From Rhodobiaceae bacterium (GTDB lineage Bacteria; Pseudomonadota; Alphaproteobacteria; Puniceispirillales; Puniceispirillaceae): a DNA stretch of 39,084 nucleotides. Location: assembly GCA_018624035.1 (NCBI GenBank), contig JAAZUU010000006.1, positions 1 to 39,084 on the forward strand, given 5' to 3'. The notes beneath the pieces are model-generated. The model searched no databases and was not told where the DNA came from. It saw only the letters and a list, made by a program, of their open reading frames with translations. The position numbers were made by a program, and so were the translations under genes. Of the stretch, positions 8,057-32,145 are shown piece by piece; within the stretch, counting starts at the first letter, position 1; the number at the start of each line of letters is the position of its first letter.

Positions 8057-8088
8057 ATAATAAATATAGAATGTTTAGGAATTTCAAG

Positions 8089-9750: not shown

Positions 9751-11187
9751 ATGCCCTATCCAGATTTGAAAATGCTCATTGCCGGTGAGTGGACCGATGG
9801 AAGCTCGGTCAAGAGCGAGCCGGTCATCTGCCCGGCAGATGGCAGCACCATCGGGACCCTGCCACATGCCAGCCCGGCCGATCTCGACGCGGCGTTGCAG
9901 AGCAGCCTTGACGGATTCAATGTCTGGCGAAAGATGACCCCGCACAGCCGCCAGGCGGTTCTGGAAAAGGCCGCCGGTCATCTTGAGGACAGGTTCGAGG
10001 ATATCAGTGCCAATCTGACGCGCGAAATGGGCAAGCCAATCGGTGAATCCCGGATCGAGCTTCGCGTCGCCATCGACCTGTTGCGCTGGTATGCCGAGGA
10101 AGGCAAGCGGGTCTATGGCCGGATCATCCCGTCACGCTTTCCGAATATGCAGCATGAGGCCCGCAAGGAGCCGGTTGGACCGGTGGTCGCTTTTGTTGCC
10201 TGGAATTTCCCGGCAACCAACACCATGCGGAAAGTTGCCGGCGCGCTGGCTGCAGGCTGCTCGATCACCATCAAACCAAGCGAGGAAACCCCGGCAACGG
10301 CCATTGCCATCGGCCGCGCCCTGACGGATGCGGGCCTGCCGGCCGGTGTTCTGAACATCGTCTTCGGAGTGCCACCGGAAGTCTCGGAACATCTTCTCGC
10401 CTCGCCGATCCCGCGCAAGCTCAGCTTTACAGGAAGCGTTCCCGTCGGCATTCATCTTCAGCAGCTGGCGGCACGGAACATGATCCGCTGCACCATGGAG
10501 CTTGGTGGCCATTCACCGGTGATGGTGTTCGAGGATTGCGACATCGAGGCAGCCGCGAAACTCTGCGCAGCCGGTAAGTTCCGCAACGCCGGACAGGTCT
10601 GTATTTCACCCACGCGGTTCTTTGTTCAGGACAGCATCCATGACAGGTTCCTTGCCCTGTTCACCGAACAGGTCGAGGCGGTAAAGGTTGGTAACGGCCT
10701 TGATGAAGAGGTGAATATGGGACCGCTGGTGGCAGAGCGTCGTATCGACATCATGGATGGCTTCGTCTCGGATGCCGTCAGTAACGGTGCCGAACTTCTG
10801 GTTGGCGGATCACGCATCCAGAGCGAGGGGTCCTTCTTTGCCCCGACATTGCTTCAGGAGGTGCCGGACACCGCCAGAATCATGACCGAAGAGCCGTTCG
10901 GGCCTATCGCGCCCACGGCCCGGTTCTCCTCGCTTGAAGAGGTGATCGACCGGGCCAACAGCCTGCCCTTTGGACTGGCCGCCTACGCCTTTACCGGCAG
11001 CGCGAGAACCGCCGGTGTCCTGAAGCAGGAAATCGAGGCTGGCATGCTGGCCATCAACTCGCTGCATGTGCATTCGGTTGAAACACCCTTCGGGGGCCTG
11101 AAATCCAGCGGCTATGGACATGAGGGCGGTATCGAGGGGCTGGAGGTGTTCCTCGCCACCCGATATTCAAGCGAGATCTACAGCTGA
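9751..11187 (+). CDS. NAD(P)-dependent aldehyde dehydrogenase (succinate-semialdehyde dehydrogenase-like)
   Basis: Catalytic Glu in TMELGGHSPV and Cys in NAGQVCISPTR; GFAAYAFT-like and PFGGLKSSGYGHEGG C-terminal motifs. Confidence 0.95.
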   Translation: MPYPDLKMLIAGEWTDGSSVKSEPVICPADGSTIGTLPHASPADLDAALQSSLDGFNVWRKMTPHSRQAVLEKAAGHLEDRFEDISANLTREMGKPIGESRIELRVAIDLLRWYAEEGKRVYGRIIPSRFPNMQHEARKEPVGPVVAFVAWNFPATNTMRKVAGALAAGCSITIKPSEETPATAIAIGRALTDAGLPAGVLNIVFGVPPEVSEHLLASPIPRKLSFTGSVPVGIHLQQLAARNMIRCTMELGGHSPVMVFEDCDIEAAAKLCAAGKFRNAGQVCISPTRFFVQDSIHDRFLALFTEQVEAVKVGNGLDEEVNMGPLVAERRIDIMDGFVSDAVSNGAELLVGGSRIQSEGSFFAPTLLQEVPDTARIMTEEPFGPIAPTARFSSLEEVIDRANSLPFGLAAYAFTGSARTAGVLKQEIEAGMLAINSLHVHSVETPFGGLKSSGYGHEGGIEGLEVFLATRYSSEIYS

Positions 11188-11221: not shown

Positions 11222-12781
11222 CTAGGTTGGCCGGCGCGGGGTTTGCGGCGGGGTTGTCGGCACGAATGGAAAACGCTTGCGGGCCTTTGTCGCGGTCGTG
11301 TTCGGGTCGATTGCACCGCGCACATAGGCCCGACTGGCGTCAAATGGCGGCGTGTAGTCCCAGGACGGAAACTCTCCGTTCTTCATCGCCTCCTGCACAA
11401 AAAGGCGGGTCTTCTGTGATGCCACGACCCGCTGGCCAAGCGCGGCCTCATCCCAGCGATTGGCGACGCGTTCCCGCATCGCCCTGATGATGTCGGCGGA
11501 GGCCGGCTCTTGCGCAAGATTCCGTTCTTCATCCGGATCAGCGGCGAGATCGAAGAGCATTTCCGGGTCCGTGCCACACCGCACATATTTCATGTTACGG
11601 TGGCGGCACATCAATGCCGGATGGTGCACGCCCTCGCCGCAATATTCAAAGAAGACACAATCATCGTCACCTCCCGCCGCTGGAAGATCGAACAGGCTTC
11701 TGCCATCAATGGGCGCAACATAGTCTGAGTAGCTTCCGCCATTCGCGATATCGGCAAAGGTTGGCAGCAGATCAACAAGGGTGGTCAGTGCGGTTTCGCA
11801 ATGGCCCTGTTTCAGATCTGGCCCCATCGCAATCATGGGGACACGCACCGACCCCTCATAGGGGTTGAATTTGTACCACATGCCGCGCTCGCCAATCATG
11901 TCACCATGATCGGAGATGACAAACACGCAGGTGTTTTCAAGCTGACCGACCTTTTCAAGTGTCTCGACCAGCCCGCCAACAAGCGAGTCAAAATAGCTTG
12001 TCATGGCAAAATAGGCATGTCGCGCCTTGCGGAGCTGGTCATCGGTGATGTTGAATTCATCCTGCCTTATGGTCATGAAGTATCGCTGCGACCATGGATC
12101 GCGTTCCTCATAGGGGATGAAATCCACCCGCGGCATGGCGATCGCCTCATGGTCGTAGAGTTCCCAGAATTCCCGGGTGGTCACAAAGGGATTGTGCGGA
12201 TGGGTGAATGAGGCATGAACAAGGAACGGCCTTTCATCGGCTGAACGGGCAATATCAAAAAGCTCCTGTCTTGCCATGTTGAAAACATGGTCGTCATAAT
12301 CGATCTGCAGGCTGCGCTCGCATATGCCGGCCTCGACAACGCTGTGAAGGCTCATGCGTGAGGGGGAATACTCCTCGTCATATTGTGACCAGTCGGCTGT
12401 CCACCCGTAATCCGACGGATAGATATCGGTTGTCAGGCGCCGTTCGAACCCGTGAAGCTGGTCAGGTCCCACGAAATGCATCTTTCCGACAAGGCTGGTC
12501 TGATATCCGAGCATGCGCAGATAATGCGCGTAGGTCGGCTCGGAAGACAGGAACTCGCCGGCATTGTCATAGACACCGATATTCGATGGCAGCCGTCCCG
12601 TCATCATGGAAGCGCGTGACGGGCCGCATACCGGGCTGTTGCAATAGCTGTTGCGAAAGGTGGTGCCGCGCTCGGCGATCCGGTCGATATGCGGCGTCAG
12701 CGCATAGGGCGTGCCATAGGCCTGCAAGCACAAGGCGGTGAGCTGGTCCGCCTGGATGACCAGAATATTCGGTTTTGACAC
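11222..12781 (-). CDS. Type I sulfatase, choline-sulfatase (BetC)-like
   Basis: FGly motif C-x-P-S-R in NSPVCGPSRASMMTGR; GKMHFVGPDQLHGFERRLTTDIYPSDYGWT is typical of choline-sulfatase-like proteins; SDHGDMIGERGMWYK. Confidence 0.93.
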   Translation of the reverse strand: MSKPNILVIQADQLTALCLQAYGTPYALTPHIDRIAERGTTFRNSYCNSPVCGPSRASMMTGRLPSNIGVYDNAGEFLSSEPTYAHYLRMLGYQTSLVGKMHFVGPDQLHGFERRLTTDIYPSDYGWTADWSQYDEEYSPSRMSLHSVVEAGICERSLQIDYDDHVFNMARQELFDIARSADERPFLVHASFTHPHNPFVTTREFWELYDHEAIAMPRVDFIPYEERDPWSQRYFMTIRQDEFNITDDQLRKARHAYFAMTSYFDSLVGGLVETLEKVGQLENTCVFVISDHGDMIGERGMWYKFNPYEGSVRVPMIAMGPDLKQGHCETALTTLVDLLPTFADIANGGSYSDYVAPIDGRSLFDLPAAGGDDDCVFFEYCGEGVHHPALMCRHRNMKYVRCGTDPEMLFDLAADPDEERNLAQEPASADIIRAMRERVANRWDEAALGQRVVASQKTRLFVQEAMKNGEFPSWDYTPPFDASRAYVRGAIDPNTTATKARKRFPFVPTTPPQTPRRPT

Positions 12782-17132: not shown

Positions 17133-17140
17133 CAAACTGT

Positions 17141-17166
17141 GCCACACGCCCGCACGGGCGTGTGGC
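17141..17166 (+). terminator. Strong intercistronic hairpin, 11-bp perfect stem with GCAC loop and no T-tract
   Basis: GCCACACGCCC-gcac-GGGCGTGTGGC immediately after the TAXI gene stop. Confidence 0.75.
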
Positions 17167-17201
17167 TCTCATATGATTGCAACCTTCAGAAACGTCATCA
17201 G

Positions 17202-18716
17202 ATGAAAACCGTCTTCGTACTTCTGGACTCACTCAACCGCAATGCCATGGAACCCTATGGCTCGCAGACGGTCCATACACCGAATTTCACCCGGTTCCAG
17301 CAGCGGGCGGTCACCTTTGACAATCATTATGTCGGCAGCCTGCCCTGCATGCCGGCACGCCGCGATCTGCATACCGGTCGCAGCCATTTCCTGCATCGCA
17401 GCTGGGGACCGCTGGAGCCCTTTGACGACTCCTTTCCGGAGATCATGAAACAGCATGGCGTCTACACCCACCTGGTCACCGACCACCATCATTATTTCGC
17501 CGATGGCGGGGCGACCTATCACCAGCGCTATTCGTCCTGGGACCTTGTCAGGGGGCAGGCCATAGACCGTTGGAAAGCCGAGGTCGCACCCGATCTTGAG
17601 GCGTTGAAATCAGCCTTTCATCCGGTGCAACGACATCGCACCAACTACATGATCAACAGGCAATTCATGGTGGATGAGGAGGATTACTGCTCACCGCAGC
17701 TTTTCAGGCTTGCCGATGAATTCCTGCAACGCAATCACCGGTCCGATAACTGGCTTCTCCAGCTTGAATGCTTTGACCCGCATGAGCCGTTCCATGCGCC
17801 ACCCCGGTTCCGTGACCGATACAAAACCTCCTATGACGGTCCGATTCTGGACTGGCCCATCTATGACCGGGTCAAGGAGACACCCGAGGAAATTGCCGAG
17901 TTGAGGGCGAATTATGCCGCCCTTGTCACCATGACAGATGAATATTTCGGCAAGCTTCTGGATATCTTTGACCAGCATGATCTGTGGGCCGACACCGCCC
18001 TTGTCCTGACCACGGACCATGGGTTCCTGCTTGGCGAGCATGACTGGTGGGCGAAGAACCGGATGCCGGTCTATGACGAAATCGCGCATATCCCGCTAAT
18101 GATCTATCACCCCGATTTCGCCAGCGAGGGCGGCACCAGACGACAGGCCCTGACCCAGACAACGGACCTGATGCCGACCTTTCTGGATATGGCCGGGCTG
18201 GCGATTCCGGCGGATGTCAGCGGCCATTCCCTGATGCCTGTTCTTGGCGGCGATGAAGGCAAACGTGACAGCGTGATCTTCGGCTATTTCGGTGCCGCCG
18301 TGAATGTATGTGACGGGCGATACAGCTATTTCCGCTACCCCGCCGTATCGGGGGCCGAATCCCTGCATGAATACACATTGATGCCGACACGCATGACAGC
18401 GCGCTTTTCCATTCGCGATCTTGCCGGCGCGACACTGCACCCGTCCTTTTCCTTCACCAAGGGTGTGCCGGTGTTGAAACTTGACCCGAAAACCGATGAT
18501 GAGGGGCAACCCGTTGAAGTTCAGGGCATGGGCTTTGAAGACTGGCGCTCGGCCCTGTACGATCTTGATACCGACCCCGGCCAGACAACACCGCTCGACA
18601 GGCCCGAAATCGAAATGCATCTTTGCCAGCAGATCATCGAAAACATGACAAGGCTGGATGCGCCATATGAAGCCTACCGGCGATTTGGTCTGCCGGCGCC
18701 CGGGGAGACCGCATGA
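17202..18716 (+). CDS. Type I sulfatase / alkaline-phosphatase-superfamily hydrolase with C-M-P-A-R motif
   Basis: MKTVFVLLDSLNRNAMEPYG; FGly-type motif in GSLPCMPARRDLHTGR; TTDHGFLLGEHDWWAKN. Start set at 17202. Confidence 0.92.
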   Translation: MKTVFVLLDSLNRNAMEPYGSQTVHTPNFTRFQQRAVTFDNHYVGSLPCMPARRDLHTGRSHFLHRSWGPLEPFDDSFPEIMKQHGVYTHLVTDHHHYFADGGATYHQRYSSWDLVRGQAIDRWKAEVAPDLEALKSAFHPVQRHRTNYMINRQFMVDEEDYCSPQLFRLADEFLQRNHRSDNWLLQLECFDPHEPFHAPPRFRDRYKTSYDGPILDWPIYDRVKETPEEIAELRANYAALVTMTDEYFGKLLDIFDQHDLWADTALVLTTDHGFLLGEHDWWAKNRMPVYDEIAHIPLMIYHPDFASEGGTRRQALTQTTDLMPTFLDMAGLAIPADVSGHSLMPVLGGDEGKRDSVIFGYFGAAVNVCDGRYSYFRYPAVSGAESLHEYTLMPTRMTARFSIRDLAGATLHPSFSFTKGVPVLKLDPKTDDEGQPVEVQGMGFEDWRSALYDLDTDPGQTTPLDRPEIEMHLCQQIIENMTRLDAPYEAYRRFGLPAPGETA

Positions 18717-20392
18717 TGACCGACAAACCCAATATCCTGCTGATCATGGCCGATCAGCTGGCAGCCCAGGCTCTGTCGCTCTATGGCAACAGGATCTGCA
18801 AGACTCCCAATCTGGAACGGCTCGCATCCGAAGGCGTCACCTTTGCCAATAATTATTCGAACAATCCCTTATGTGTGCCAAGCCGCGCCTCGATGATGAC
18901 CGGCCGACACAGCCCCGACATTAGGGTGTATGACAACGCCAACGAAATCCCCTCATCGCTTCCGACCATGGCGCATTTCATGCGGGCGCTCGGCTATCAG
19001 ACCTTCCTGTCGGGGAAAATGCATTTCATTGGTCCCGACCAATTGCACGGTTTCGAGGAGCGCCTGACGACAGATGTCTATCCTGCTGACTATCAATGGA
19101 TTGCCGACTGGTCGGCGGGACCGGCGTTTGTTCCCTCGGGAACGGCGCTGAACGGCGTTGTCGAGGCCGGCCCGTGTGTTCGCACGATGCAGGAGGATTA
19201 CGACGATGATGTCGAGTTTCAGGCCCGCCGCAAGATTTTCGATCTTGCCAGAGAGGATCGGGCCAGAGAGGATGGGGCCAGACAGGACGGGGCCAGACAG
19301 GACGGGGCCAGACAGGACGGGACCGGACAGGACGGGGCAAAACCGTTCTTCGGGGTTGTCTCCTTCACCAGCCCGCATACCCCGTTCAATGTCGCGCAAC
19401 AATATTGGGATCTCTATGATCATGACGAAATAGGTCTGCCCGATGTACCGGCGATCCCTTTTGCCGAGCTTGATTATTTCTCCAAAGCCCTGTTCTTTGC
19501 CCATGGTCGGCACCGGCACAGTGTGACCGAGGAGCATCTGCGCAAGACGCGCCATGCCTATTTCGCGATGATTTCCTATATCGACGAGAAAATCGGCAGG
19601 CTTTTGGACCAGCTTGAGGAAACCGGCCTGCGAAATGACACGGTGGTCATTTTCACCTCTGATCATGGCGAGATGCTTGGTGAACGCGGCATGTGGTTCA
19701 AACAATGTTTCTGGGAATGGTCCGCAAGGGTTCCGCTCATTGTGTCCGCACCGAATGGTCGGCGCGGCGCGCGGGTCGAGGCCAATACATCACTGGTGGA
19801 TCTGGCGCCGACGCTGATCGAAATGGGTGGTGGCGCGGCAAAGCTTCCTGAACAGATGGGCGCCGAACTGGCCGGCAACGCGGTCACGGCTTTGCTTGAC
19901 GGCGAGGATGGCGACTGGCCGGATATCGCGGTCAGCGACTATCTGGCGATCGGGCCGTGCGTGCCCTGCCGGATGGTCAGGAAGGGGCAATACAAATATA
20001 TCTTCACCCATGGGCAGCCCGACCTGCTGTTCAATCTGGTTTCTGACCCCGATGAACTGCAGAATCTCGCTGACGAACCGGCACATGCCGCAATTCTCGT
20101 CGAGCTGCGCCGGATTGCAATGCAGGATTATGATCCTGAAGCGCTGATGTCGGAGGTGATTGCCAGCCAGCGGCGGCGGCGCTTTATCGCCACGGTCCCC
20201 GGAACAAACCCGCCATGGGATTATGTGGCCTATCAGGGTGATGCGGACCGCTATGTCCGCCGCGACGGAGTCGACGCGACAAAGTCACGCCTGCGCCTGC
20301 CCCGCATTGCGCCGGTGGCTCCGGACATGCCCGAACTGTCGGCCGAGACCATCGAGCGTATGATGCAGGGCGAGATGGACTTTCCAGCCTGA
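18713..20392 (+). CDS. Type I sulfatase, choline-sulfatase (BetC)-like, paralogue of the 11222-12781 gene, with internal repeat insertion
   Basis: NNPLCVPSRASMMTGRHS; GKMHFIGPDQLHGFEERLTTDVYPADY; TSDHGEMLGERGMWFK. ATGA overlap with the preceding sulfatase. Confidence 0.94.
   Translation: MMTDKPNILLIMADQLAAQALSLYGNRICKTPNLERLASEGVTFANNYSNNPLCVPSRASMMTGRHSPDIRVYDNANEIPSSLPTMAHFMRALGYQTFLSGKMHFIGPDQLHGFEERLTTDVYPADYQWIADWSAGPAFVPSGTALNGVVEAGPCVRTMQEDYDDDVEFQARRKIFDLAREDRAREDGARQDGARQDGARQDGTGQDGAKPFFGVVSFTSPHTPFNVAQQYWDLYDHDEIGLPDVPAIPFAELDYFSKALFFAHGRHRHSVTEEHLRKTRHAYFAMISYIDEKIGRLLDQLEETGLRNDTVVIFTSDHGEMLGERGMWFKQCFWEWSARVPLIVSAPNGRRGARVEANTSLVDLAPTLIEMGGGAAKLPEQMGAELAGNAVTALLDGEDGDWPDIAVSDYLAIGPCVPCRMVRKGQYKYIFTHGQPDLLFNLVSDPDELQNLADEPAHAAILVELRRIAMQDYDPEALMSEVIASQRRRRFIATVPGTNPPWDYVAYQGDADRYVRRDGVDATKSRLRLPRIAPVAPDMPELSAETIERMMQGEMDFPA
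19247..19336 (+). repeat. 15-bp tandem repeat, 6 copies, in frame inside the sulfatase (AREDR-AREDG-ARQDG-ARQDG-ARQDG-TGQDG)
   Basis: Consensus gccagacaggacggg; three central units identical. Confidence 0.95.
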
Positions 20393-20434: not shown

Positions 20435-21460
20435 TCACATGCCATCATAGCCGTGTCGAAATGTTTCGTCGGCAGGCTGGAAGATCGCGCCACCGTCGGC
20501 ATAGCAGGGGTGGTGATGCCATGGATGGGCGCTGCGATCAGCCATGCCGGCGATATCCTGAAGATAGCCAAGCCCGTCCCCGGCAAGCCCTTCAACAATT
20601 CGGTCCCAGTCCGGATAGGACGTGAACGCATCCAGCCAGATCGCCCGACCGGCAAGAAACCCTGATGCACCCGCCTTGAACGCATGCGCAAGAATATCAC
20701 GAAATGCCTCTTTGCCGGCCCCGGCAGACAACATCACCCAGGGCCGTCCGGCAAGACGCCCCATTTCATCAAACAAGGCCTGCACATTGGCTGACCCGTC
20801 TATGGCGTCCGCATTCACCGGACTTTCCAGTTTGAAAACATCGACACCATAATCAGGTCTGGCAAATTCCTCGACAGAGGCCAGCACCTGGTCACTCGCC
20901 TTTGCCTGCATTTCGACATAACCGCGTGATGCGGCTGCCTCGCTGGCGAACGGATATAGCAACAGCTCGAGAAGAAACGGAATGTCATATTGGGCACATT
21001 CATCCCCGATCCGTTTCACATAGTCCTGCTGGAAGGCAATATTTGCCGGCGAGGCGTCCGGACGGTACCAGGCAAGAACCTTGACCGCGTCGCCACCAAG
21101 CCTTTTGATCTTGCTGACTGACCAGTTATCGATACTGGCCGAAAACCGCCCCTCGCCGGTCTCGGTGAAGATCGAGTCTTCAAGTGTTACAACCAGGCCC
21201 TTGTCCGATGCCAGCGAATCGAACGCCGCCGGAATGCCATAATGCGGATCCAGCAGAACGGCGGAGCCCGGCCCCTGAAGCTGGCGCACGATTTCCAATT
21301 TGAGTCTGGCAACTTCAGCCCACGGCGCCTCGGGAAGATTCAATTGCCTGGCAATCGGGTCCTTGATTGGTGGGCGCTGATCGGCTGCGACCATTTTGAA
21401 CAACCCGTTCTTATCCGCCATGCGGCGCATACCCAAAAGCTTTCCGGGAGTTAATTGCAT
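20435..21460 (-). CDS. Class I aldolase of the LacD/YihT type (tagatose-bisphosphate / sulfofructose-1-phosphate aldolase-like)
   Basis: MVAADQRPPIKDP, VLLDPHYGIPA, DVFKLESPVNA (Schiff-base Lys context), WVMLSAGAGKEAF and AGASGFLAGRAIW. Start at MQLTPGKLLGM. Confidence 0.88.
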   Translation of the reverse strand: MQLTPGKLLGMRRMADKNGLFKMVAADQRPPIKDPIARQLNLPEAPWAEVARLKLEIVRQLQGPGSAVLLDPHYGIPAAFDSLASDKGLVVTLEDSIFTETGEGRFSASIDNWSVSKIKRLGGDAVKVLAWYRPDASPANIAFQQDYVKRIGDECAQYDIPFLLELLLYPFASEAAASRGYVEMQAKASDQVLASVEEFARPDYGVDVFKLESPVNADAIDGSANVQALFDEMGRLAGRPWVMLSAGAGKEAFRDILAHAFKAGASGFLAGRAIWLDAFTSYPDWDRIVEGLAGDGLGYLQDIAGMADRSAHPWHHHPCYADGGAIFQPADETFRHGYDGM

Positions 21461-21461: not shown

Positions 21462-22352
21462 TCAGTATTCCTCCATAAAGGCGGTGCAGCTTTGTCGGTC
21501 CGGCGACGCGCTGATGCCGCCAAATTTCAGACATTTCATCGCGGCAGCGGCGTTTGCCGTCGTAATTGCCGAGGTTTCATCCATTCCCTCACCAAGACAA
21601 AGAGCGAAAATGCCATGCCAGACATCACCGGCGGCGATCGTGTCGACAGCCTCGACGGCGAAGGCCGGAACATTGACCAGCTCGTTGTCATGGAGGTGCC
21701 AGACGCCATTTTCACCATCTGTCACACATACCCAGCAACCCGTAGCTTCGCGCGCCCGCAACAATCCATCCTCGATGCAGCCATCGGGCGCGAATGAATC
21801 CAGCCCCTGTTTTGAAAAGGCCAGATGGGTGGCACCGCGTGCATGATCTGCCGAAAAGGGCGCTTCGGCATCAATGATGATTGGAACATGTTGCTCATCG
21901 CCAAGTTCAATGGCCCAACTCGTCAATTCGGGATGACGGTTATCCGCCAGAACCGCACAGGGCATCGAGGGCGGTCTGGTCGATTTGAGCATCCTGGAGA
22001 ATCCCCGACCCGCATAATTGAATGTCTGGCGTTCCCCCTGATGATTCACGAATGCGGCCGAGACGGATGATTGTGCTTGCGGGGCAAGCGGGCTCATCGA
22101 CATATCCACCAACTCATCGCTCAGCGCCTGATGGATAAAGCGCCCCATCATATCGTCACCAAGATAGGTCGCAAGCATGGGCCGCCCGCCAAATCTGGCT
22201 ATGGCGATGCTTGCGTTTGCCGCGGGGCCGCCAACAACAAAACGCGAATCATGGGCGCGCATTTTTTCGCCCCGCGCCGAGAATTGATCGACATTCATGA
22301 TCAGATCGACAGTGGCCCGGCCCGCCACGATTATTGTGGCGGCGCTATTCAT
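21462..22352 (-). CDS. PfkB-family carbohydrate kinase, YihV (6-deoxy-6-sulfofructose kinase)-like
   Basis: GGPAANASIAIARFG, DTIAAGDVWHGIFA, ALKC-like MKCLKFGG...PD. Start set at MNSAATIIVAGRATVDLIM (approximate); ORF-track start is 22514. Confidence 0.85.
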   Translation of the reverse strand: MNSAATIIVAGRATVDLIMNVDQFSARGEKMRAHDSRFVVGGPAANASIAIARFGGRPMLATYLGDDMMGRFIHQALSDELVDMSMSPLAPQAQSSVSAAFVNHQGERQTFNYAGRGFSRMLKSTRPPSMPCAVLADNRHPELTSWAIELGDEQHVPIIIDAEAPFSADHARGATHLAFSKQGLDSFAPDGCIEDGLLRAREATGCWVCVTDGENGVWHLHDNELVNVPAFAVEAVDTIAAGDVWHGIFALCLGEGMDETSAITTANAAAAMKCLKFGGISASPDRQSCTAFMEEY

Positions 22353-23955
22353 TGGCAAAAGTCGGGGCGGCAAGCCCATGGATCCTGACATTGATACATG
22401 CCGGCCTGCCGCTGGCGAGCGCGCGTTCAAAAGCCGGAGCGAGTTCGGCAAGGCTGGTGACATATTCACCATGTCCACCCATTGCCAATGCCACCTCGTC
22501 ATATCGGGCGTCACTCAATCCACAGGCAAAAACACGGTCCGGACCGAAATCCCGCTCCTGAATCCTGACCTCGGCATTCCACTGCAGATCATTGCCAATG
22601 ACCACCACCACCGGCAGTTTCTCGCGCACTGCCGTTTCAAACTCGGCAAGATGAAAGCCGACGGTTCCATCACCCATAAATGCCAGAACATGCCTGTCAG
22701 GAAGGGCCAGCTTTATCGCCATGGCATAACTCAGACTGCCGCCAATAGCCCCCGACACGCCATTTATCATCACCAGATGACGTGTCAGCATACTCTGAAC
22801 CCATTGGCCAATCTCAGCACCATCGGACACCGCGGCGATATTTTGGTGTGAGGCCAGAATGTCACTGACAGCACTGACAAAGGAAAAAGAGTTCAATTCC
22901 TGCCTGTCGCCCGCATGATCAGCCGCTGGAATGTCACGGCGTGCGATTTCATCCTGCAGCGATTCGTGCCAGTTCGCGGCGACATTGCTGGTGGGTGCCA
23001 GTTGCTCCAGCATGGCGATGGACTCTGTGGCAGAGAGGTCGGCCATTTCCTGTAATCGATCACCAAGATTGCCGCGCGCCTGCGCCAGAATCCGTTCATC
23101 ACCGATATAGGCACACCATTTGGCCTCGGCACTGAATGGCCCGACCGCCCCATAGGCAAGTGAGAAATCGACCGGCTTGCCGACAAGGATGATGACATCG
23201 GCAAGGCGCGCCATGGATTTGAAATTGCCAAGCCGCGGATCGTTCAGGCCTCGTGGACTGTCCATCAGCACGACAGGCACCTGCAACCGCTTCTCAAGCG
23301 CTCGTAACGTCGCCGCATGATGCGGCATGCCAAGTGATGGTCCCGCAATGATCAATGGCCTTTTCGCCGCCGCCAGCATGGCTGCGAGCCGGTCCGAAGG
23401 AGAGGCCGGTTCAGTCGCGAACGCAGGATCCTGCGGTTCGGCGGAGAACATGTCATCCAGATCACTGGTCAGAACATCCGCCGCGAGTGCCAGATGCGCC
23501 GGGCCCGGCATCCCCGTCCTGGCCGCCGCAATGGCGGCAAATGTATATTCTGCAAGGTCGCTGGTCTTGCATAGCCGCTGCGAATATTTGGTCACCGCTT
23601 TGGTAATCTGTACCTGGTCCATTTCCTGGAAGCTGCCTTTATTATCAAGGCTTGCCTCGGAATCTCCACTCAGCAGCAGCACCGGTGTTTGTGACTGACT
23701 TGCCGTGAATAACGGGGCAATGGCGTTACACAGGCCGGCCCCCGCCGTCACCATGGCAACGCCGAGGCCGCCGGTAATGCGGGCATGGGCCTCTGCCATA
23801 TAGAGCGCGGCTGCTTCGTGGCGCACATGAACAATCCGGATATTCTCATCAAGACAGGCATCGAAGAGCGGCATGATCTGATTGCCCGAGAGCGCGAAAA
23901 TCGTTCTCACACCTGCGCTCTTCAAGATCCTGATCAATGCAGCCGACGCCTTCAT
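22345..23955 (-). CDS. Thiamine diphosphate-dependent enzyme, acetolactate-synthase-like superfamily, substrate unknown
   Basis: MKASAALIRILKSAGVRTIFALSGNQIMPLFDACLD; catalytic Glu in VHVRHEAAALYMAEAHAR; ThDP motif GDGTVGFHLAEFETAVREKLPVVVVIGNDLQWN. Start approximate. Confidence 0.9.
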   Translation of the reverse strand: MKASAALIRILKSAGVRTIFALSGNQIMPLFDACLDENIRIVHVRHEAAALYMAEAHARITGGLGVAMVTAGAGLCNAIAPLFTASQSQTPVLLLSGDSEASLDNKGSFQEMDQVQITKAVTKYSQRLCKTSDLAEYTFAAIAAARTGMPGPAHLALAADVLTSDLDDMFSAEPQDPAFATEPASPSDRLAAMLAAAKRPLIIAGPSLGMPHHAATLRALEKRLQVPVVLMDSPRGLNDPRLGNFKSMARLADVIILVGKPVDFSLAYGAVGPFSAEAKWCAYIGDERILAQARGNLGDRLQEMADLSATESIAMLEQLAPTSNVAANWHESLQDEIARRDIPAADHAGDRQELNSFSFVSAVSDILASHQNIAAVSDGAEIGQWVQSMLTRHLVMINGVSGAIGGSLSYAMAIKLALPDRHVLAFMGDGTVGFHLAEFETAVREKLPVVVVIGNDLQWNAEVRIQERDFGPDRVFACGLSDARYDEVALAMGGHGEYVTSLAELAPAFERALASGRPACINVRIHGLAAPTFANE

Positions 23956-24018: not shown

Positions 24019-24732
24019 CTAGCCAATTGAATATCCCCCGTCAACAACGAGTGTTTGTCCGGTGACGAACTCCGCCTGCTTGCTGGCCAGAAACAACGCC
24101 GGCCCGGCAATGTCGTCAGGCTGGCCCCACCGCCCGAATGGCGTGCGGGAAATGACCGCATCATAATGCACGGTATCGGCGCGACCTCGCCTAGTCTGTT
24201 CGGTAACAACGAAGCCGGGGGCGATTGCATTGACCCTGACACCATGCGGCGCATATTTCAGCGCCAATGATTTCGTCAGCTGATGGATCGCCGCCTTGCT
24301 TGCCCCATAGGCTGGCACTTTTGGACTGCCAAAAAAGCTGTACATGGAGGCAATGTTGATCACGACACCCCCGGCCGCGATCAACGCACCTTCGAAATGC
24401 CTCACAACATCAAAATTTCCGATCAGATTGACGTCGATGACCTGACGAAACACATCAAGATCATCTTCCAGGTTACGGCGCGATATCGCCGCGCAATTGA
24501 CCAGAACATCCAGACGCGAAAACTGGCTGGCAAGCGCGGAAATCGCGCCGGTGTCACAAACATCAAGCTGATGATAAACCGCCACGCCCTCGGGCATCGA
24601 CAGCGGTTCAGCTTCAACGCCTGTGATGATCACCCTGTCTCCTTGCGCGGCGGCTGCCCTCGCAATGGCAGCGCCAATGCCATCAAGGCTTGCGCCAACC
24701 ACAAGCCAAACACGCTGGTCCGTCTCATTCAT
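24019..24732 (-). CDS. Short-chain dehydrogenase/reductase 1
   Basis: VVGASLDGIGAAIARAAAAQGDRV, NCAAISRR, SMYSFFGSPKVPAYGASKAAIHQL (S-Y-K), C-terminal TGQTLVVDGGYSIG. Confidence 0.93.
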   Translation of the reverse strand: MNETDQRVWLVVGASLDGIGAAIARAAAAQGDRVIITGVEAEPLSMPEGVAVYHQLDVCDTGAISALASQFSRLDVLVNCAAISRRNLEDDLDVFRQVIDVNLIGNFDVVRHFEGALIAAGGVVINIASMYSFFGSPKVPAYGASKAAIHQLTKSLALKYAPHGVRVNAIAPGFVVTEQTRRGRADTVHYDAVISRTPFGRWGQPDDIAGPALFLASKQAEFVTGQTLVVDGGYSIG

Positions 24733-24748: not shown

Positions 24749-25498
24749 TCATGTGATAAAGCCGCCGCCGCCAAGATTAAGCATGGACCCGCTTGCATAA
24801 TTGAATTTTCCGGAAATCAGGTCGATGACCGGCATCGCGATATCCACCGGGTCCGCCACCGCGCCGCAGGCGATTGTGGCCTCAATTGCCGCTCTGGTTG
24901 CAGGGTCGGCAAGCATGGTGCCGGTCATATCGGTGCGGGTCACCCCCGGACGCACCGAAAACACGGAAATGCCATGTGGCGCAAATTCCTTTGCGGCACC
25001 GATGGTGAACACATCAACAGCCCCTTTACTGGCGGCATAGACGCTCTTTTGCGCCCGCCCGCCAATGGTGGCTGCCATTGAGGACATATTGACGATCACC
25101 CCGGAATCGCCTTTCGCCATGGCGCGTGCGGCAAATTCCCGGCAACACATGATCAGGCCAACGACATTGACCGCGAATGTCGAATGCACAAAATCATGAT
25201 CAACGTCAGTGATGGCCCGCGGTCCATTGTCGATTCCGGCAGCGGTCACCAGCGCCTGCGCTGGTCCCATCGACAGCTCAATTTCCTCGAAAAAATGCGC
25301 AACACTGTGGGGGGCGGCCACATCCAGCGCAAATGCCTCTATCCGGCTATCGGACGCCGCCACCACATCATCTGCCGCTTTTCGGTTGCTGCCATAACTT
25401 ATCGCCACACGCCAACCGGCGTCCACGGCCGACAGGGCAATTTGCCTGCCGATGCCCCTGTTTCCCCCGGTAACGATTAACAGCCTGCTTTCACTCAT
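24749..25498 (-). CDS. Short-chain dehydrogenase/reductase 2
   Basis: TGGNRGIGRQIALSAVDAGWRVAI, MSSMAATIGGRAQKSVYAASKGAVDVFT, SVRPGVTRTDM. Confidence 0.93.
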   Translation of the reverse strand: MSESRLLIVTGGNRGIGRQIALSAVDAGWRVAISYGSNRKAADDVVAASDSRIEAFALDVAAPHSVAHFFEEIELSMGPAQALVTAAGIDNGPRAITDVDHDFVHSTFAVNVVGLIMCCREFAARAMAKGDSGVIVNMSSMAATIGGRAQKSVYAASKGAVDVFTIGAAKEFAPHGISVFSVRPGVTRTDMTGTMLADPATRAAIEATIACGAVADPVDIAMPVIDLISGKFNYASGSMLNLGGGGFIT

Positions 25499-26700
25499 AG
25501 CGCATCCTTCAATCTTGGCAGCATGAACTGGCCCTCCCCGACTATTTCTGACGCCGTTTCCGCGCCATTGAACACCGCATTCATCCTCGCCAGCACTGCC
25601 TGTTGCGCACCGCCACGGTCAAGCTCACCGGTAAAATAGCCATCCAGTTCAACATCGATATCCTCACGCCAGTGCCGCAATGTCTGCGGGTTGCCGCAGA
25701 TTTTTATGATCGGACATAAGGGGTTCCCGGAAGGATTGAACACACCCATCGCAAACAGCCCGAGGTTGCATCCCGCCATCATCATGCCGGTCAGCGAAAC
25801 CGGGCTGAAAAAGGGCGTGTCCATGAAATGCAGGCCAGGCGCGCCGGCAGGCATTCCAAATTCCAGAGCGGAAACAAAATCGGTTGTGCCTGTCTTGCTT
25901 ACCGCCCCCATTGATTTCTCGATCAACGTGGTCAGCCCGCCATCGATATTCTCGCGGGTAGGGTTGGTGCCACGATAATCCTTGCCACTGTCCTGTTCCA
26001 TCAATCTGGCACGGTAGCTAATGAAATCCAGCACCATCTGTCTTGTCGCCGGGTCGGGGCACCGGTCCTCGAACACCGCTTCCGCGCCGATGAATTCTGC
26101 TGTCTCCGAGACCACAGCCGACCCGCCGACAGCTATGGTGAGATCGCAGATATCACCAATCACCGGATTGCTGCAGATGCTGCTGGAAACATCACTGCCG
26201 CCACATTCAAGCGCCAGCGCGACAGCATCTTGCCCGACCATGGTCCGGCGCTGCTCAAGCTTGTTTTGACGGCTGGCGAGCATCTGCAACTTTTCACCGC
26301 CTTCAGCCACGGCCCGAGCCCGCCCGGCGCATTGCATGAAGGCGAGATATTCAATCGGGATTGCCGCGTCGATTTCCCTGGCGAGCCGCTCGGCTGTCGC
26401 GCGGTCATGTGTCAATACCAGCGCCGCTCCCACATTCGGATGGGTCAGCACGCTCCGGATAAAGCGCTCGACCATCACCTCGTCAATTTTCTGCAACCCG
26501 CGGGAAAACGCCCCCATGACGCACAGCGAGTCTGTATCGGTGGCGGCAATGGCGGCGGCTAGGCGATCGGTCAGCGCCACGGTGGAGAGCACGATTCTAT
26601 GATTTCGGATACCCACCCTGCCATCGGATCGGCGATACCCATGCCATTCGAGACTGCTAGCAAAGTCAAAAAGGTCAGTGCTACTCACAGTTATGGACAT
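25495..26700 (-). CDS. UxaA-family hydro-lyase large subunit: altronate dehydratase-like or (2R)-sulfolactate sulfo-lyase beta (SuyB)-like
   Basis: GYRRSDGRVGIRNHRIVLSTV, ALECGGSDVSSSICSNPVIG, GGLTTLIEKSMGAVSKTGTT, HFMDTP, SGNPLCPIIKICGNPQTLRHWREDIDVELDG. Confidence 0.85.
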   Translation of the reverse strand: MSITVSSTDLFDFASSLEWHGYRRSDGRVGIRNHRIVLSTVALTDRLAAAIAATDTDSLCVMGAFSRGLQKIDEVMVERFIRSVLTHPNVGAALVLTHDRATAERLAREIDAAIPIEYLAFMQCAGRARAVAEGGEKLQMLASRQNKLEQRRTMVGQDAVALALECGGSDVSSSICSNPVIGDICDLTIAVGGSAVVSETAEFIGAEAVFEDRCPDPATRQMVLDFISYRARLMEQDSGKDYRGTNPTRENIDGGLTTLIEKSMGAVSKTGTTDFVSALEFGMPAGAPGLHFMDTPFFSPVSLTGMMMAGCNLGLFAMGVFNPSGNPLCPIIKICGNPQTLRHWREDIDVELDGYFTGELDRGGAQQAVLARMNAVFNGAETASEIVGEGQFMLPRLKDAL

Positions 26701-26941
26701 GCACATGCTCACCCTGTTCGATGGGATGCGTCGCCACGCCGATGCTTATGCCGTATTTGACAACCGCCTCGCCAGGGGCGATGGCCCGCAAACTTACCTT
26801 GTGCCCGAACGGCACCTTGTCCGCGATTGTCATGCCATCGCTCAGGCAAGCGATCCCGGCATCCTCATCCATCAAGGTTGCTACATTGTCAGCCGGACTC
26901 AGGACCAGAAACCGCCTTCCTCGCTGCGTTCCTAGTTGCAT
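26681..26941 (-). CDS. UxaA-family SAF-domain small subunit (altronate dehydratase N-domain or SuyA-like)
   Basis: 86 aa; ADKVPFGHKVSLRAIAPGEAVVKYGISIGVATHPIEQGEHVHVHN; overlaps the large subunit gene. Confidence 0.85.
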   Translation of the reverse strand: MQLGTQRGRRFLVLSPADNVATLMDEDAGIACLSDGMTIADKVPFGHKVSLRAIAPGEAVVKYGISIGVATHPIEQGEHVHVHNCE

Positions 26942-27660
26942 ACGATCCCCCCGTCCACATTGATCACCTGACCGGTGATATATGCGGAGTCAGGACCAAG
27001 AAGGAACTGGATTACGCTCGCCACCTCGTCCGCTGTGCCAAGGCGCTTCATCGGCACCTCGCCCAGTACTTTATCGATGCCGCGCCTGGCGATGATCTGT
27101 TGCGGCATGCTTGTGTCGATAAATCCGGGAGCCACAACATTCACCAGAACCTGAGGCGCTTCCTTTCTTGCCAGGGATCGCGCCATCCCGACCAAGGCTC
27201 CCTTGGCTGCGCTATAGGCGGTATGCCCCGGCGCGCCTCGTCTGTAGGCCAGCGAGCTGACCAGCACGACACGCGCACCGGTTTCATTCAACAAGGCCTG
27301 ACGAGCGGTCGCGTATAGCGCATAGACATTGCGAATATTTGCCGCCATGACGGGATCATAGACCGTCTCGACATCACCTGAAGCCATATCATCAGGCACG
27401 AAAATACCGGCCAGATGAACCAGTCCATACAGATGGTCTTCCCGGCCCAGAATTGCGCGGCATGCCGCCTCATCCTCCAGTCCGGAGCAGTGATAGACTA
27501 GGCGGCTGGTGTCCGATATCGCGGCTTCCAGAATTTCCGCACCCCGGGGATTGACATCTATGGCGATAACCCGCGCGCCCAGATCGATCAGGCGGTTGAC
27601 AAGAGGGAGTCCAATGCCACCCGATGCGCCTGTAACAATTATTGTTTTTCCATCGAACAT
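26932..27660 (-). CDS. Short-chain dehydrogenase/reductase 3
   Basis: MFDGKTIIVTGASGGIGLPLVNRLIDLGARVIAIDV, VSSLAYRRGAPGHTAYSAAKGALVGM, TGQVINVDGGIVCN. Confidence 0.93.
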   Translation of the reverse strand: MFDGKTIIVTGASGGIGLPLVNRLIDLGARVIAIDVNPRGAEILEAAISDTSRLVYHCSGLEDEAACRAILGREDHLYGLVHLAGIFVPDDMASGDVETVYDPVMAANIRNVYALYATARQALLNETGARVVLVSSLAYRRGAPGHTAYSAAKGALVGMARSLARKEAPQVLVNVVAPGFIDTSMPQQIIARRGIDKVLGEVPMKRLGTADEVASVIQFLLGPDSAYITGQVINVDGGIVCN

Positions 27661-27770: not shown

Positions 27771-28817
27771 TTAGCGGCCTATAACCCGGTTGTTCCTGTC
27801 GGCAAGGTCGGCTTCCGCCTCGGCAACGGCCTTTTCGAATTTCTTCAGCCATTTGTCACCATATTTATCGGCGAACCAGACCTTCATCTTGTCGCGCGCC
27901 TCTACGAAAGTTGCCTTTTCTTTGGCTGACGGCACATAAATCTCACCGCCGAAACCAACAAACTCCTTCAAGGCTCGTGCGTCATACTCCTTGTTCCAGT
28001 CGGACTGGATCATCGATGCCTGCTGAACACCATCGATCACCAAATCCTGGAGGTCGGCAGGCAAGCTCTGCAACCACGCATCCGACATCCACCAGAAAGC
28101 AAAGAGATATGCATGCTCGTCAAGCGTGACATATTTCACGGCTTCATACATCTTCGTCGGGACGATGTCGGTTGCCGCGTTCTTCGTGCCTTCGACAACG
28201 CCTGTTTGCAGCGAGGTATACAGCTCACCCCAGGCAACCGGTGTCGGGTTGCCACCAAGAGACTTGATGAATTCGATCTGCAATGGCGAGTTGATGGTTC
28301 TCATCTTCACGCCCTTCATGTCAGCAGCCGACTTGATCAGCTTGTTGGTGGTGAAGAAATTCCGCCACCGACCGGTGTTGCCAACAGCCACAAGCCGTAC
28401 ATTGCCGGTCGCCGTCAAAATCTCGTCGCGAACCTCATCAAAGAATGAGCTTTGCGCGATACGCTCGGCAATCGAGTCACCATTCATCATGTAGGGGATG
28501 TCCGTGACCTGCAACTCGGGCCAGAAGCTGGCAATACCACCAACTGTTGTGTGGGTCAGCTCCAGCGTGTTCAGCTGCACCTGTTCGATCTGATCGCGGA
28601 AGTTGCCAAGCTGCGCGCCGGGATAAATCTCCACGGTGATCCGCCCATTCGAACGGCTCTCAAGGAATGATTTGAGGAATTCACCGGGCACCTGATCATC
28701 TGATGTCACCGGGCCAACATGGCCATATTTCAGCGTGAACTCAGCCGCAAACGAGGCCGCCGGCAGGCACACAGCCAACAGGCCCGCCATAATGGTTTTG
28801 CTAATGATAGACTTCAT
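27771..28817 (-). CDS. TRAP transporter solute-binding protein, DctP family
   Basis: Signal peptide; EFTLKYGHVGPVTSDDQVPGEFLKSFLESRSNGRITVEIYPGAQLGN; ADMKGVKMRTINSPLQIEFIKSLGGNPTPVAWGELYTSLQTGVVEG. Confidence 0.95.
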   Translation of the reverse strand: MKSIISKTIMAGLLAVCLPAASFAAEFTLKYGHVGPVTSDDQVPGEFLKSFLESRSNGRITVEIYPGAQLGNFRDQIEQVQLNTLELTHTTVGGIASFWPELQVTDIPYMMNGDSIAERIAQSSFFDEVRDEILTATGNVRLVAVGNTGRWRNFFTTNKLIKSAADMKGVKMRTINSPLQIEFIKSLGGNPTPVAWGELYTSLQTGVVEGTKNAATDIVPTKMYEAVKYVTLDEHAYLFAFWWMSDAWLQSLPADLQDLVIDGVQQASMIQSDWNKEYDARALKEFVGFGGEIYVPSAKEKATFVEARDKMKVWFADKYGDKWLKKFEKAVAEAEADLADRNNRVIGR

Positions 28818-28901: not shown

Positions 28902-30203
28902 CTATCCAAATCCGAGCAGCCTCGGCACCGTCATCGAGATCGCGGGCACGTAGGTGACCAGCGCGATAATCGCGATATGGACGATATAGAAAGGCAACAT
29001 TTCCGACACCACCGATTCGATCCTCTCGCGGCTGACCGCCGAGGCAACAAACAGGATCAGCCCCATTGGCGGCGTCGCTAGACCAATTGTCAGATTGACG
29101 CACATGATGATGGCAAAGTGTAACGGGTCCACACCGACAGCCATCGCGGTCGGGGTCAGAATCGGCCCCAGGATCAGGATCGCCGGGCCGGCATCGAGAA
29201 ACATGCCGACAACCACGAGCAGCAGGTTGATCAGCAGCAGCACAACATATTTGTTGTCGGTATATTCAAACAGAAAGGCCGTCAGCAGTTTCGGCACACC
29301 GGACAGGGTGGCGATCCAGGCAAAGACGCTGGCCATTCCGACAGCCAGCAATATCACACTGGATGAAACCGCTGTGCGGAACAGCATGTTCTTCACCCGT
29401 GTCAGCGGCAGACTTTTCATAAAGATGCACAATATTATGGCATAGACCACAGCGGCACCGGCTGCCTCGGTCGGGGTGAACACCCCGGACAGGATTCCCC
29501 CCATGATGATAATGGGTGTGAGAAGCGGCCAGAAGGCATCAAGACCGGCGCGCGCTGCCACGCGCATTCCCGGAAACCGGTCGGCAACCGGATATTCGCG
29601 GCGCCGCGCGATGATCGACACCACTGTCATGAGGCCGACGCCGGTAAGCAACCCCGGAACAACACCCGCAAGGAACAGCGCGGCAACGGATATCTCCATG
29701 ATATAGGCATAGACCACCATGATGATGCTTGGTGGAATGATCGGCCCGATCACTGATGACGCCGCTGTTACCGCGGCGGAAAATTTCCGGGAATAACCCT
29801 GTTTTTCCATTGCCGGTATCAGCATTGAACCAAGTGCCGATGTGTCGGCAACGGCCGAGCCACTCAGACCTGCAAAGAAAATCGACGAGATGATGTTCAC
29901 ATGTGCAAGGCCACCCCGCAGATGCCCGACAAGTACGCGCGCGAAATATACAAGCCGTTCGGTGATACCACCCACATTCATGATTTCCCCGGCAAGGATG
30001 AACATGGGTATGGCAAGCAGGGGGAATTGATTGATCCCGATATAGAGCTTCTGGGCAATGATCGCCAGAAAGACCTCTTTGTCAGCCAGCACAAGGCCGA
30101 GCATAGGTGCCGCGCCCAGAGCGAACACTATCGGCATGCCAACACTGATCAAGCCCAGCAAGATCCAGATAAATGTCACGGGTATCATCTCACGCCCCCA
30201 CAA
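28902..30203 (-). CDS. TRAP transporter large permease (DctM)
   Basis: 433 aa, multiple TM segments; FFAGLSGSAVADTSALGSMLIPAMEKQGYSRKFSAAVTAASSVIGPIIPPSIIMVVYA. Confidence 0.95.
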   Translation of the reverse strand: MWGREMIPVTFIWILLGLISVGMPIVFALGAAPMLGLVLADKEVFLAIIAQKLYIGINQFPLLAIPMFILAGEIMNVGGITERLVYFARVLVGHLRGGLAHVNIISSIFFAGLSGSAVADTSALGSMLIPAMEKQGYSRKFSAAVTAASSVIGPIIPPSIIMVVYAYIMEISVAALFLAGVVPGLLTGVGLMTVVSIIARRREYPVADRFPGMRVAARAGLDAFWPLLTPIIIMGGILSGVFTPTEAAGAAVVYAIILCIFMKSLPLTRVKNMLFRTAVSSSVILLAVGMASVFAWIATLSGVPKLLTAFLFEYTDNKYVVLLLINLLLVVVGMFLDAGPAILILGPILTPTAMAVGVDPLHFAIIMCVNLTIGLATPPMGLILFVASAVSRERIESVVSEMLPFYIVHIAIIALVTYVPAISMTVPRLLGFG

Positions 30204-30236: not shown

Positions 30237-30791
30237 CTAGAACTCGTCCAGAACCGGGCGATGTTTGGTAACAAAAGCATCCTGCTGTGCCGGCTTGCCA
30301 GCAATCAGGAAGGACATGTCTTCCAAAAATTGCTGCAATGACACGAGCGCCATGCTGGCCATACCAATGGGAATCGACACAAAAAACCAATACATCGAGA
30401 CATCGCCAACCGAAATGGCCACCTGCGTTCTGCCATTCCAGGCGAAGTCATGGCTCTTCATGGCAAGGAAACCGCAAAAAACGCATACGGCCAGATGCAT
30501 GACCGCAAGAATGAACCGCGTCACCCGTGACGGAAATCTGGAAATGACAATTTCGATATTCGGATGGACGCCAAGGCGCAGAGCAATCGGCGCGCCCAGA
30601 AACACCAGCCAGAGCATCGCATATTTGGCCAGTTCCTCGGACCAGGAGAGGCTGTCATTGAGGACATAGCGGAAGAACACGCCAGCCGAAACAATCGCCG
30701 CAACCGCCAGCACAAGGAACATGGCGCCCCATCGGAATGCGCCCAACTGCACCACATTAATGGCTGACAGACATCTGATTGCCAAATTCAT
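30237..30791 (-). CDS. TRAP transporter small permease (DctQ)
   Basis: 4 TM segments; SLSWSEELAKYAMLWLVFLGAPIALRLGVHPNIEI is characteristic. Start at MNLAIRCL. Confidence 0.93.
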   Translation of the reverse strand: MNLAIRCLSAINVVQLGAFRWGAMFLVLAVAAIVSAGVFFRYVLNDSLSWSEELAKYAMLWLVFLGAPIALRLGVHPNIEIVISRFPSRVTRFILAVMHLAVCVFCGFLAMKSHDFAWNGRTQVAISVGDVSMYWFFVSIPIGMASMALVSLQQFLEDMSFLIAGKPAQQDAFVTKHRPVLDEF

Positions 30792-30831
30792 GACTGCACC
30801 TACCCCCCCTTGGTCGTCCACTATCCCGGCA

Positions 30832-32079
30832 CTATCCCGGCATTATCGTGACTTGCACACCATGCTCTTTCATTGCTGGCAAATCAGGGATGATGCCGAT
30901 GCCATCATCCTCGGGCAACGCTATGCGCCCGCCTGTCGATGGCCGCAAATCCCAATCCGCCAGACTTTCCCTGATCGGGTTATCATTCACGTCGACTTCC
31001 AGCAAACCAGCGTCGCCAATAACAGTCAACATATGTGCCGATGCAGCAAGACCAACCATCCCGCCAAGCCAGTGCGGACAATAGACAGATTTTGGCGGCG
31101 ACTGCACGGCATCACGGCCGCCAAAAATGCGGAGCAGCCCTGTAAACCCGCCGATTTTTCCGATATCCGGTTGCACGAAGGCAAATAATGCCTGTGCCTG
31201 ATAGGCGTCGACAGCATCCAATGTCGGCAGATTTTCACCGCCTGCGAGCGGCACACTGATCATATTGGCCAGTTCTCGCCACTGTGCCTGCGCCGCACTG
31301 GCCCGCAGCGGCTCCTCAATCCACTTCAGATCAAACCGGCTCAAGGCATTGATATTGTCGGCTGCCTGTTGCGGCGACATCCAGGCCTGATTGGCATCAA
31401 TCATCAACTGATGATCTTCATCGATCAATTGACGGGCGACAGCAAGACCGTCCCGGTCAACATCTTCACCAAACCCCACCTTGACCTTGAACGCTGTAAA
31501 TCCGCGTTCGCTTGCGAGCTGCACGCGTTCTCTCGCCTCTTTGGGATGAATGCCGCTGGCATAGGCCCTTACCACATCACCCGACGCACCAAACAGAGCG
31601 CAAAGCCTCATCCCCTGTCGGCGCGCCACCATATCCCACAAGGCCTGATCCACACCGGCAATCACCTGCAACAAGGTGCCGGGGTCGGCAGTCTGCAAGC
31701 CAAGCACCGAAAAGGCGGCGGTCAGACCATCAAAAATCTCTGCTGGGGAGCTGAAATGACGCCCCTTGAGCCAATAGGCGAATTCATTGACCAGCAGGTT
31801 GGCCTTATATTCAGCGCCACGCGACGGAAAATTGCACCATATCTCGCCATGCCCGACACACCCATCAGCGTCGGTGATCCGGACAAGCAATGCGGGGCGG
31901 TCATACATCGTGCCAAATGACGTCTGCACCGGCACATCGATCCCGGCGCGGAGAAGAATTGCCTCGACATGCCTGATCTCATGCCTCTGGTCAGCAAGCC
32001 GCCGCGCCACATCGTCGAGCATTCCGATTTGATCAGCATTCCTCATATTGGTCTTCATTTTGACATGTTGGCAGGCCAT
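30832..32079 (-). CDS. Enolase-superfamily dehydratase (mandelate racemase subgroup)
   Basis: KxK in AFKVKVGFG, metal ligands in MIDANQAW, KWIEEPL, LAGGENL; QPDIGKIGG and PHWLGGMVG for the likely His-Asp dyad. Start uncertain among several N-terminal Mets. Confidence 0.92.
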   Translation of the reverse strand: MACQHVKMKTNMRNADQIGMLDDVARRLADQRHEIRHVEAILLRAGIDVPVQTSFGTMYDRPALLVRITDADGCVGHGEIWCNFPSRGAEYKANLLVNEFAYWLKGRHFSSPAEIFDGLTAAFSVLGLQTADPGTLLQVIAGVDQALWDMVARRQGMRLCALFGASGDVVRAYASGIHPKEARERVQLASERGFTAFKVKVGFGEDVDRDGLAVARQLIDEDHQLMIDANQAWMSPQQAADNINALSRFDLKWIEEPLRASAAQAQWRELANMISVPLAGGENLPTLDAVDAYQAQALFAFVQPDIGKIGGFTGLLRIFGGRDAVQSPPKSVYCPHWLGGMVGLAASAHMLTVIGDAGLLEVDVNDNPIRESLADWDLRPSTGGRIALPEDDGIGIIPDLPAMKEHGVQVTIMPG

Positions 32080-32090
32080 TTCAGAAACAT

Positions 32091-32108
32091 AATGACATCG
32101 GTATCATT
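32091..32108. promoter_or_regulatory. LacI/GntR-type operator copy 2, in the divergent enolase-superfamily / GMC2 promoter
   Basis: AATGACATCGGTATCATT, identical to copy 1, 38 bp before the GMC2 ATG. Confidence 0.87.
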
Positions 32109-32145
32109 CCAACGTATTTTCGAAAAGTCAACGTTATCCGTCGGG

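Follow-up and report, generated by a model that had tools for sequence, protein, structure and literature searches.

Which sugar is phosphorylated by the PfkB-type kinase encoded at 21462..22352 of the window (the whole stretch of 39 084 nucleotides analysed here, from an alphaproteobacterial genome of 2.75 Mb), and do a lysine, an asparagine and an arginine in this kinase tell us that the sugar is sulfonated? According to the original prediction they do, and constitute the most specific single clue to a sulfonated substrate. We address the question by considering the kinase itself, its relatives, its partner aldolase and the genes that accompany the pair.

The kinase and its retained residues

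The kinase is encoded on the minus strand, from an ATG at 22352 to a stop codon at 21462, as a protein of 296 aa, which scores 112.8 bits against PF00294 (Pfam gathering score 25.8) and carries the catalytic GAGD-type motif in the form AAGDVWHG. Ribokinase, KDG kinase and IolC were each rejected as its identity, given NCBIfam scores far under every equivalog cut-off. For the AlphaFold model (pLDDT 94.8) the top fold matches in the PDB are YihV with sulfofructose and ADP (TM 0.92), YihV–AMPPNP and YihV–SFP; 2rbc is also among the best matches, and ribokinase comes after. Membership of the YihV (sulfofructose kinase) subfamily is established, and the earlier assignment of the protein to the sulfofructose-kinase type finds support both in the YihV complexes as best PDB folds and in the nesting of the protein, in the tree described below, among kinases from clusters for the plant sulfosugar sulfoquinovose (SQ). 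With YihV (PDB 7ag6, 7agh, 7agk), which phosphorylates 6-deoxy-6-sulfofructose in the sulfo-EMP pathway of E. coli, the window kinase has in common the fold, the K/N/R positions, GGPAA, GER, AFSxxGL, VDTxxAGDVxHG and an aldolase partner, but the two proteins are 29% identical, and W139 and R281 of YihV are His and Ile, respectively, in the window kinase. Moreover, unlike YihV, the window kinase has no yihS, yihQ or yihR nearby, and its partner aldolase is of the LacD type, not the YihT type.

The trio itself is real: phmmer, MAFFT and BLASTP agree in placing K30, N112 and R139 of the window kinase on K27, N109 and R138 of YihV, which we take to be the sulfonate-binding residues of that enzyme. 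The spacings claimed previously match YihV exactly (11 from the lysine to GGPAA and 4 from GER to the asparagine), as do the motifs AFSxxGL and VDTxxAGDVxHG, both exact in the window kinase; the third motif read from the sequence, LKCxxxGGxxxxPD, is present except for its first letter, which is M and not L (MKCLKFGGISASPD). The trio is more than chance, since it is absent from all 29 other PfkB kinases (ribokinase-like, IolC-like and others) drawn from the window genome and ten relatives and from E. coli RbsK, KdgK, FruK, PsuK, FrlD and YdjH, bearing in mind that the alignments are gappy at the trio columns for distant PfkB members and that absolute residue assignments there are soft. The 30th PfkB locus drawn from these eleven genomes sits in an SQ cluster and does carry the trio.

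The K/N/R trio across the YihV subfamily

Whether the trio speaks for a sulfonated substrate was considered across 106 loci encoding YihV-subfamily kinases, taken with their flanks from the named loci, from genomes of the order and the class and from annotated plasmids, near-duplicates being omitted. SQ context was defined as the presence within the locus of SqgA, a Fucose_iso-type isomerase, YihS or YihQ. The lysine is found in 106 of the 106 kinases and the arginine in 104, and both are near-invariant whatever the neighbourhood, including in members without nearby sulfosugar genes; the asparagine is found in 67. Among the 44 kinases in SQ context, 33 have the asparagine and the other 11 have Ala (5), Ser (4), Val (1) or Gly (1). 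Where no SQ marker is nearby, the asparagine, and hence the complete trio, is still present in 21 of 46 kinases, although the flanks extend to about 10 kb at most and some contigs are cut, and 'no marker' does not prove a different substrate. The difference in asparagine frequency between the two groups gives a Fisher p of 0.005, which ignores shared ancestry. Some of the trio-bearing kinases have no sulfosugar gene in view at all, their neighbours being TRAP transporter genes, DapA-like lyases (L087) or signalling genes (L050).

Considering that K and R are near-invariant in any neighbourhood, that N is variable, and that the trio occurs in none of the 29 other PfkB kinases, we argue that it is a mark of the YihV subfamily and not of the substrate, being neither necessary nor sufficient for an SQ context. 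The claim that no other single clue points more specifically to a sulfonate is consequently not upheld. A case that would refute that claim, the same trio in kinases of non-sulfosugars, may be represented by the 21 marker-less trio kinases, although a missing marker does not establish another substrate. Since the trio marks a subfamily and a quarter of the SQ-cluster kinases lack part of it, the K/N/R signature alone should not serve to annotate sulfofructose kinases.

Five SQ-cluster kinases (L069, L073, L089, L110 and L121) have Ala at YihV position 109, and a kinase can therefore belong to an SQ cluster without having the asparagine. Separately, a marine clade of trio-bearing kinases (L076, L081, L087, L091 and L103) is found with a TRAP transporter; in L087 the kinase gene stands beside two genes for DapA-like lyases, an ABC transporter and a GH4-like gene, with no SQ gene there.

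The operon and the genes around it

The kinase gene is the next-to-last of a tight minus-strand operon of 12 genes (~32079 to 20435), which is kept, complete or to the contig ends, in G001, G002, G013, G054 and G061. The first gene encodes a mandelate racemase (MR)/enolase-superfamily dehydratase (30832..32079) and is followed by those for a TRAP transporter, comprising the small permease DctQ (30237..30821), the large permease DctM (28902..30188; 57–65% identical to SQ-cluster DctM) and the solute-binding protein DctP (27771..28817; 36–47% to SQ-cluster DctP and about 25% to unrelated TRAP DctP). Next come a short-chain dehydrogenase, SDR_A (26932..27660), an 86 aa SAF-domain small subunit (26681..26941) located just upstream of, and in a frame slightly overlapping with, the large subunit of a UxaA/GD_AH-type lyase (25495..26712), two further short-chain dehydrogenases, SDR_B (24749..25498) and SDR_C (24019..24732; 42–44% to the SDR of a Shinella kinase–aldolase cluster), and a ThDP-dependent enzyme of the acetolactate synthase/benzaldehyde lyase superfamily (22345..23955), the stop of which overlaps the kinase start. 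The last gene, with its start directly after the kinase stop, encodes a LacD-type class I aldolase (20435..21460) that keeps the FKLESP Schiff-base Lys region and that we propose to be a sulfoketose-1-phosphate aldolase.

None of the upper-half enzymes is a known sulfosugar enzyme, which counts against a sulfosugar as substrate. The UxaA-like protein and its SAF partner have the SuyAB-like two-subunit architecture of a split lyase. As an ortholog of SuyB (sulfolactate sulfo-lyase) the UxaA-like protein was rejected, since it is 28–31% identical to the SuyB-like proteins found in SQ clusters, which are 65–91% identical among themselves, and is no closer to them than to E. coli UxaA (31%). The ThDP enzyme was likewise rejected as the sulfoacetaldehyde acetyltransferase Xsc (177 bits versus a 676-bit cut-off), and its relatives at 40–48% identity occur in mixed contexts that reveal no function. 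In other clusters, such as L082, L107, L128 and L141, the gene for a UxaA-type protein is accompanied by those for a GntR regulator and for a 2-hydroxyacid dehydrogenase, and in L082 a SAF subunit is encoded upstream of it; these UxaA-type genes probably serve SuyAB sulfolactate cleavage beside sulfo-EMP genes.

On the plus strand, divergent from the operon, lies a gene for GMC oxidoreductase 2 (31969..33765), and on the same strand are those for a LacI-family regulator (33970..35004), a split transketolase with N and C subunits (35166..37110) and a beta-hydroxyacid dehydrogenase (HIBADH; 37011..38030). On the other side of the operon are GMC oxidoreductase 1 with an aldehyde dehydrogenase (8071..11187, plus), sulfatase 1, of the choline-sulfatase type with the motif CGPSR (11222..12781, minus; locus-conserved in G061), and sulfatases 2 and 3 (17139..20392, plus; kept alongside the operon in both G001 and G061). 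All three sulfatases are without evident signal peptides, their motifs are CGPSR, CMPAR and CVPSR, and two of them score above the choline-sulfatase cut-off; sulfatase loci are also seen in L041 and L218. Since the companions recur with the operon in the complete genome G061 in a different order (the aldehyde dehydrogenase at 88% and sulfatase 1 at 84% identity, a ROK protein, a fused TRAP, a TAXI protein, sulfatases 2 and 3, the HIBADH, the transketolase C subunit, LacI and GMC oxidoreductase 2), the operon and its accompanying genes are likely to be one functional unit.

For the SLA reductase/dehydrogenase step two proteins come into consideration, namely the HIBADH, at 36% identity to YihU, and a 52% homolog of SlaB encoded elsewhere in the genome; no dedicated SlaB gene was found beside the operon. 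At the GRTS motif of YihU the HIBADH gives no support for being a true YihU (PVGRTSAN of YihU is PVCLSPAE here). The missing motif and the missing neighbouring SlaB both count against a sulfosugar pathway. At 4899-6920 (plus strand) the window also encodes a predicted fusion of a succinate-dehydrogenase-cytochrome-like membrane part, a 2Fe-2S ferredoxin domain and an adenylate/guanylate cyclase domain.

Kinship of the kinase–aldolase pair and the choice of substrate

The kinases of the window clade form one branch of their tree (support 100), within a 44-row set that includes 23 SQ-context kinases (SH-aLRT 96), and the stem of the clade is long, at 1.01 changes per column. All of the window-clade kinases change residues that are conserved in SQ-context kinases, namely W139→H (beside R138), R60→Y, R281→I and A41→G (YihV numbers). 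The aldolases of the window clade are nested deeper among SQ-cluster aldolases (20 rows, 13 of them SQ, SH-aLRT 99), in a tree that was built quickly and has several long basal branches; the window aldolase is about 59–67% identical to SQ-cluster aldolases and differs from them at only four SQ-conserved sites, all conservatively (L58I, A76G, V169L and T179S). An aldolase with the predicted activity of sulfo-EMP thus stands beside the kinase. Given this deeper nesting and the four conservative changes, we suggest that the aldolase is a stronger clue than the trio that a sulfoketose 1-phosphate is cleaved here. The kinase, in turn, seems to have been adapted to a sugar that is somewhat different, and its substrate may differ more than was assumed, considering its long stem together with W139→H, R60→Y and R281→I.

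The alphaproteobacterial SQ clusters (e.g. L054–L056 and L070, with TRAP, LacD-type aldolase, Fucose_iso isomerase and GH188 SqgA) have the same kinase–aldolase order as the window, and the window proteins are about 40% (kinase), about 66% (aldolase) and 62–65% (DctM) identical to theirs. Reference SQ clusters carry the GH188 sulfoquinovosidase, the Fucose_iso_C isomerase, an aldose epimerase and an SSADH-like dehydrogenase; the reference SqgA matches 8QC2/8QC3 (E about 1e-118), which are sulfoquinovosidases (PMC10755693). By comparison, the window operon is without the isomerase, SqgA, the mutarotase, the SSADH/SlaB-like protein and MauG, and has in their place the MR protein, the SAF/UxaA pair, three SDRs and the ThDP enzyme; neither an SQ isomerase nor a glycosidase is encoded in it, and YihS had no match within the loci around the operon, to which that search was limited. 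In the genus of the window a separate SQ-type locus is found (L216 on contig 36 of G000 and L217 on contig 2 of G001), with an SqgA homolog, an aldo/keto reductase and an alkanesulfonate-monooxygenase-like LLM enzyme, and in G001 also with MauG and a DctP that is 88% identical to an SQ-cluster DctP. From its gene content this locus resembles the sulfolytic monooxygenase pathway, being SmoC/SmoB-like and having its own transporter. Given this locus and a window DctP that is only 36–47% identical to SQ-cluster DctPs, SQ appears to be served by a locus of its own and the window operon to serve another substrate.

It is against this background that ordinary SQ sulfo-EMP, with the window kinase as the sulfofructose kinase of the organism and the isomerase encoded elsewhere, must be judged. 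Such an arrangement would agree with the nesting of the kinase and the aldolase in SQ clades and with the SqgA homolog (about 51%) that G000 and G001 carry away from the operon, but G013 and G061 have the operon and no SqgA match, the Fucose_iso-type SQ isomerase has no homolog in any of four operon-bearing genomes (G000, G001, G013 and the complete G061), SQ is apparently handled by the SmoC/SmoB-like locus, and the remaining genes of the operon would be superfluous; we regard it as very improbable. A sulfate ester is hardly better placed, and we consider it improbable too. An O-sulfated sugar (e.g. a hexose 6-sulfate) would fit the K/N/R pocket, the glyceraldehyde 3-sulfate released from it would be desulfated by a cytosolic sulfatase, and the cytosolic-type sulfatases of the conserved locus, kept in G061 in spite of the different gene order, would suit a sulfate ester as well as a sulfonate. 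Sulfatases 1 and 3, however, belong to the choline-sulfatase family and may therefore act on a different compound, taken up by the adjoining TAXI–TRAP system, sulfatases 2 and 3 lie on the strand opposite to the operon, and we know of no precedent for such a route.

A carboxylate in place of the sulfonate is the alternative to be taken most seriously, although we still find it unlikely. A uronate- or inositol-derived ketose or deoxyketose acid would be converted to its 1-phosphate and cleaved to DHAP and a carboxylic semialdehyde, as with YdjH/YdjI and IolC/IolJ; the dehydratase, the UxaA-like lyase, the SDRs and the ThDP enzyme resemble enzymes that break down acid sugars or inositol, the galactarate dehydratase model gives a score with the UxaA pair, YdjH/YdjI of E. 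coli is annotated as an octuluronate kinase–aldolase pair, and the full-trio kinase of L087 adjoins DapA-like lyases in a locus with no SQ genes. What speaks against a carboxylate is that the trio is missing from YdjH and from the IolC-like kinase of the same genome, that the aldolase is nearly unchanged from SQ-cluster aldolases at the conserved sites, and that the TRAP proteins fall together with their SQ-cluster counterparts.

Because SQ sulfo-EMP appears to be the source from which the kinase and the aldolase were taken as a pair, to be combined with another import system and another upper half (the TRAP transporter, the MR dehydratase, the UxaA/SAF pair, three SDRs and the ThDP enzyme as new partners), we favour a sulfosugar other than SQ, or a derivative of one, as the substrate of this YihV-type 1-kinase and its sulfo-EMP-derived aldolase, and give this reading an even chance. 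The TRAP transporter would import an anionic sugar, which the SDRs, the MR protein and the UxaA-like lyase would oxidise and dehydrate and the ThDP enzyme would rearrange; the kinase would then phosphorylate C1 of a ketose with an anionic far end, most likely a 6-sulfonate, held in the K30/N112/R139 pocket, and retro-aldol cleavage of the 1-phosphate by the aldolase would yield DHAP and a C3 aldehyde, most likely sulfolactaldehyde. We put forward, somewhat more tentatively, that the operon represents an undescribed sulfoglycolytic route of marine bacteria, in which an upper half of dehydration, oxidation and ThDP chemistry supplies the sulfoketose on which a YihV-type kinase and then an SFP-type aldolase act; that some operon-bearing bacteria also degrade SQ itself through the separate sulfolytic locus, which is part of the same proposal, is put forward with similar reserve. 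If true, sulfoglycolysis in the ocean would extend beyond sulfoquinovose, with a marine group having a dedicated pathway for another sulfosugar. The compactness of the kinase–aldolase pair makes the question of substrate directly testable with two purified enzymes.

Comparable combinations of genes are known from other clusters. In the sulfofucose cluster of Paracoccus wurundjeri, a PF00294 kinase and a PF01791 aldolase occur with an SDR and an enolase-superfamily dehydratase, the demonstrated route being of the ED type, with a lactonase and a KDSGal aldolase, and the kinase and aldolase not being induced (PMC12421959); the kinase, aldolase, SDR and dehydratase are common to the window, whereas the lactonase and the KDSGal aldolase are absent from it. 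Clusters of Shinella HZN7 and Bradyrhizobium (L035, L137 and L146) have in common with the window the families of the kinase, the LacD aldolase, the SDR (42–44%) and the MR protein (40–46%), but have an ABC and not a TRAP transporter and an ADH, and no ThDP or UxaA gene; the Shinella cluster, unlike the window operon, also has a TSUP exporter and an SSADH. The cluster type made up of kinase, LacD aldolase, ADH and MR protein is seen in these bacteria and in a Granulosicoccaceae MAG (L130), where homologs of GMC oxidoreductase 1 and of the aldehyde dehydrogenase (61% each) are added, and it is likely to represent another undescribed route for a sulfosugar or an acid sugar.
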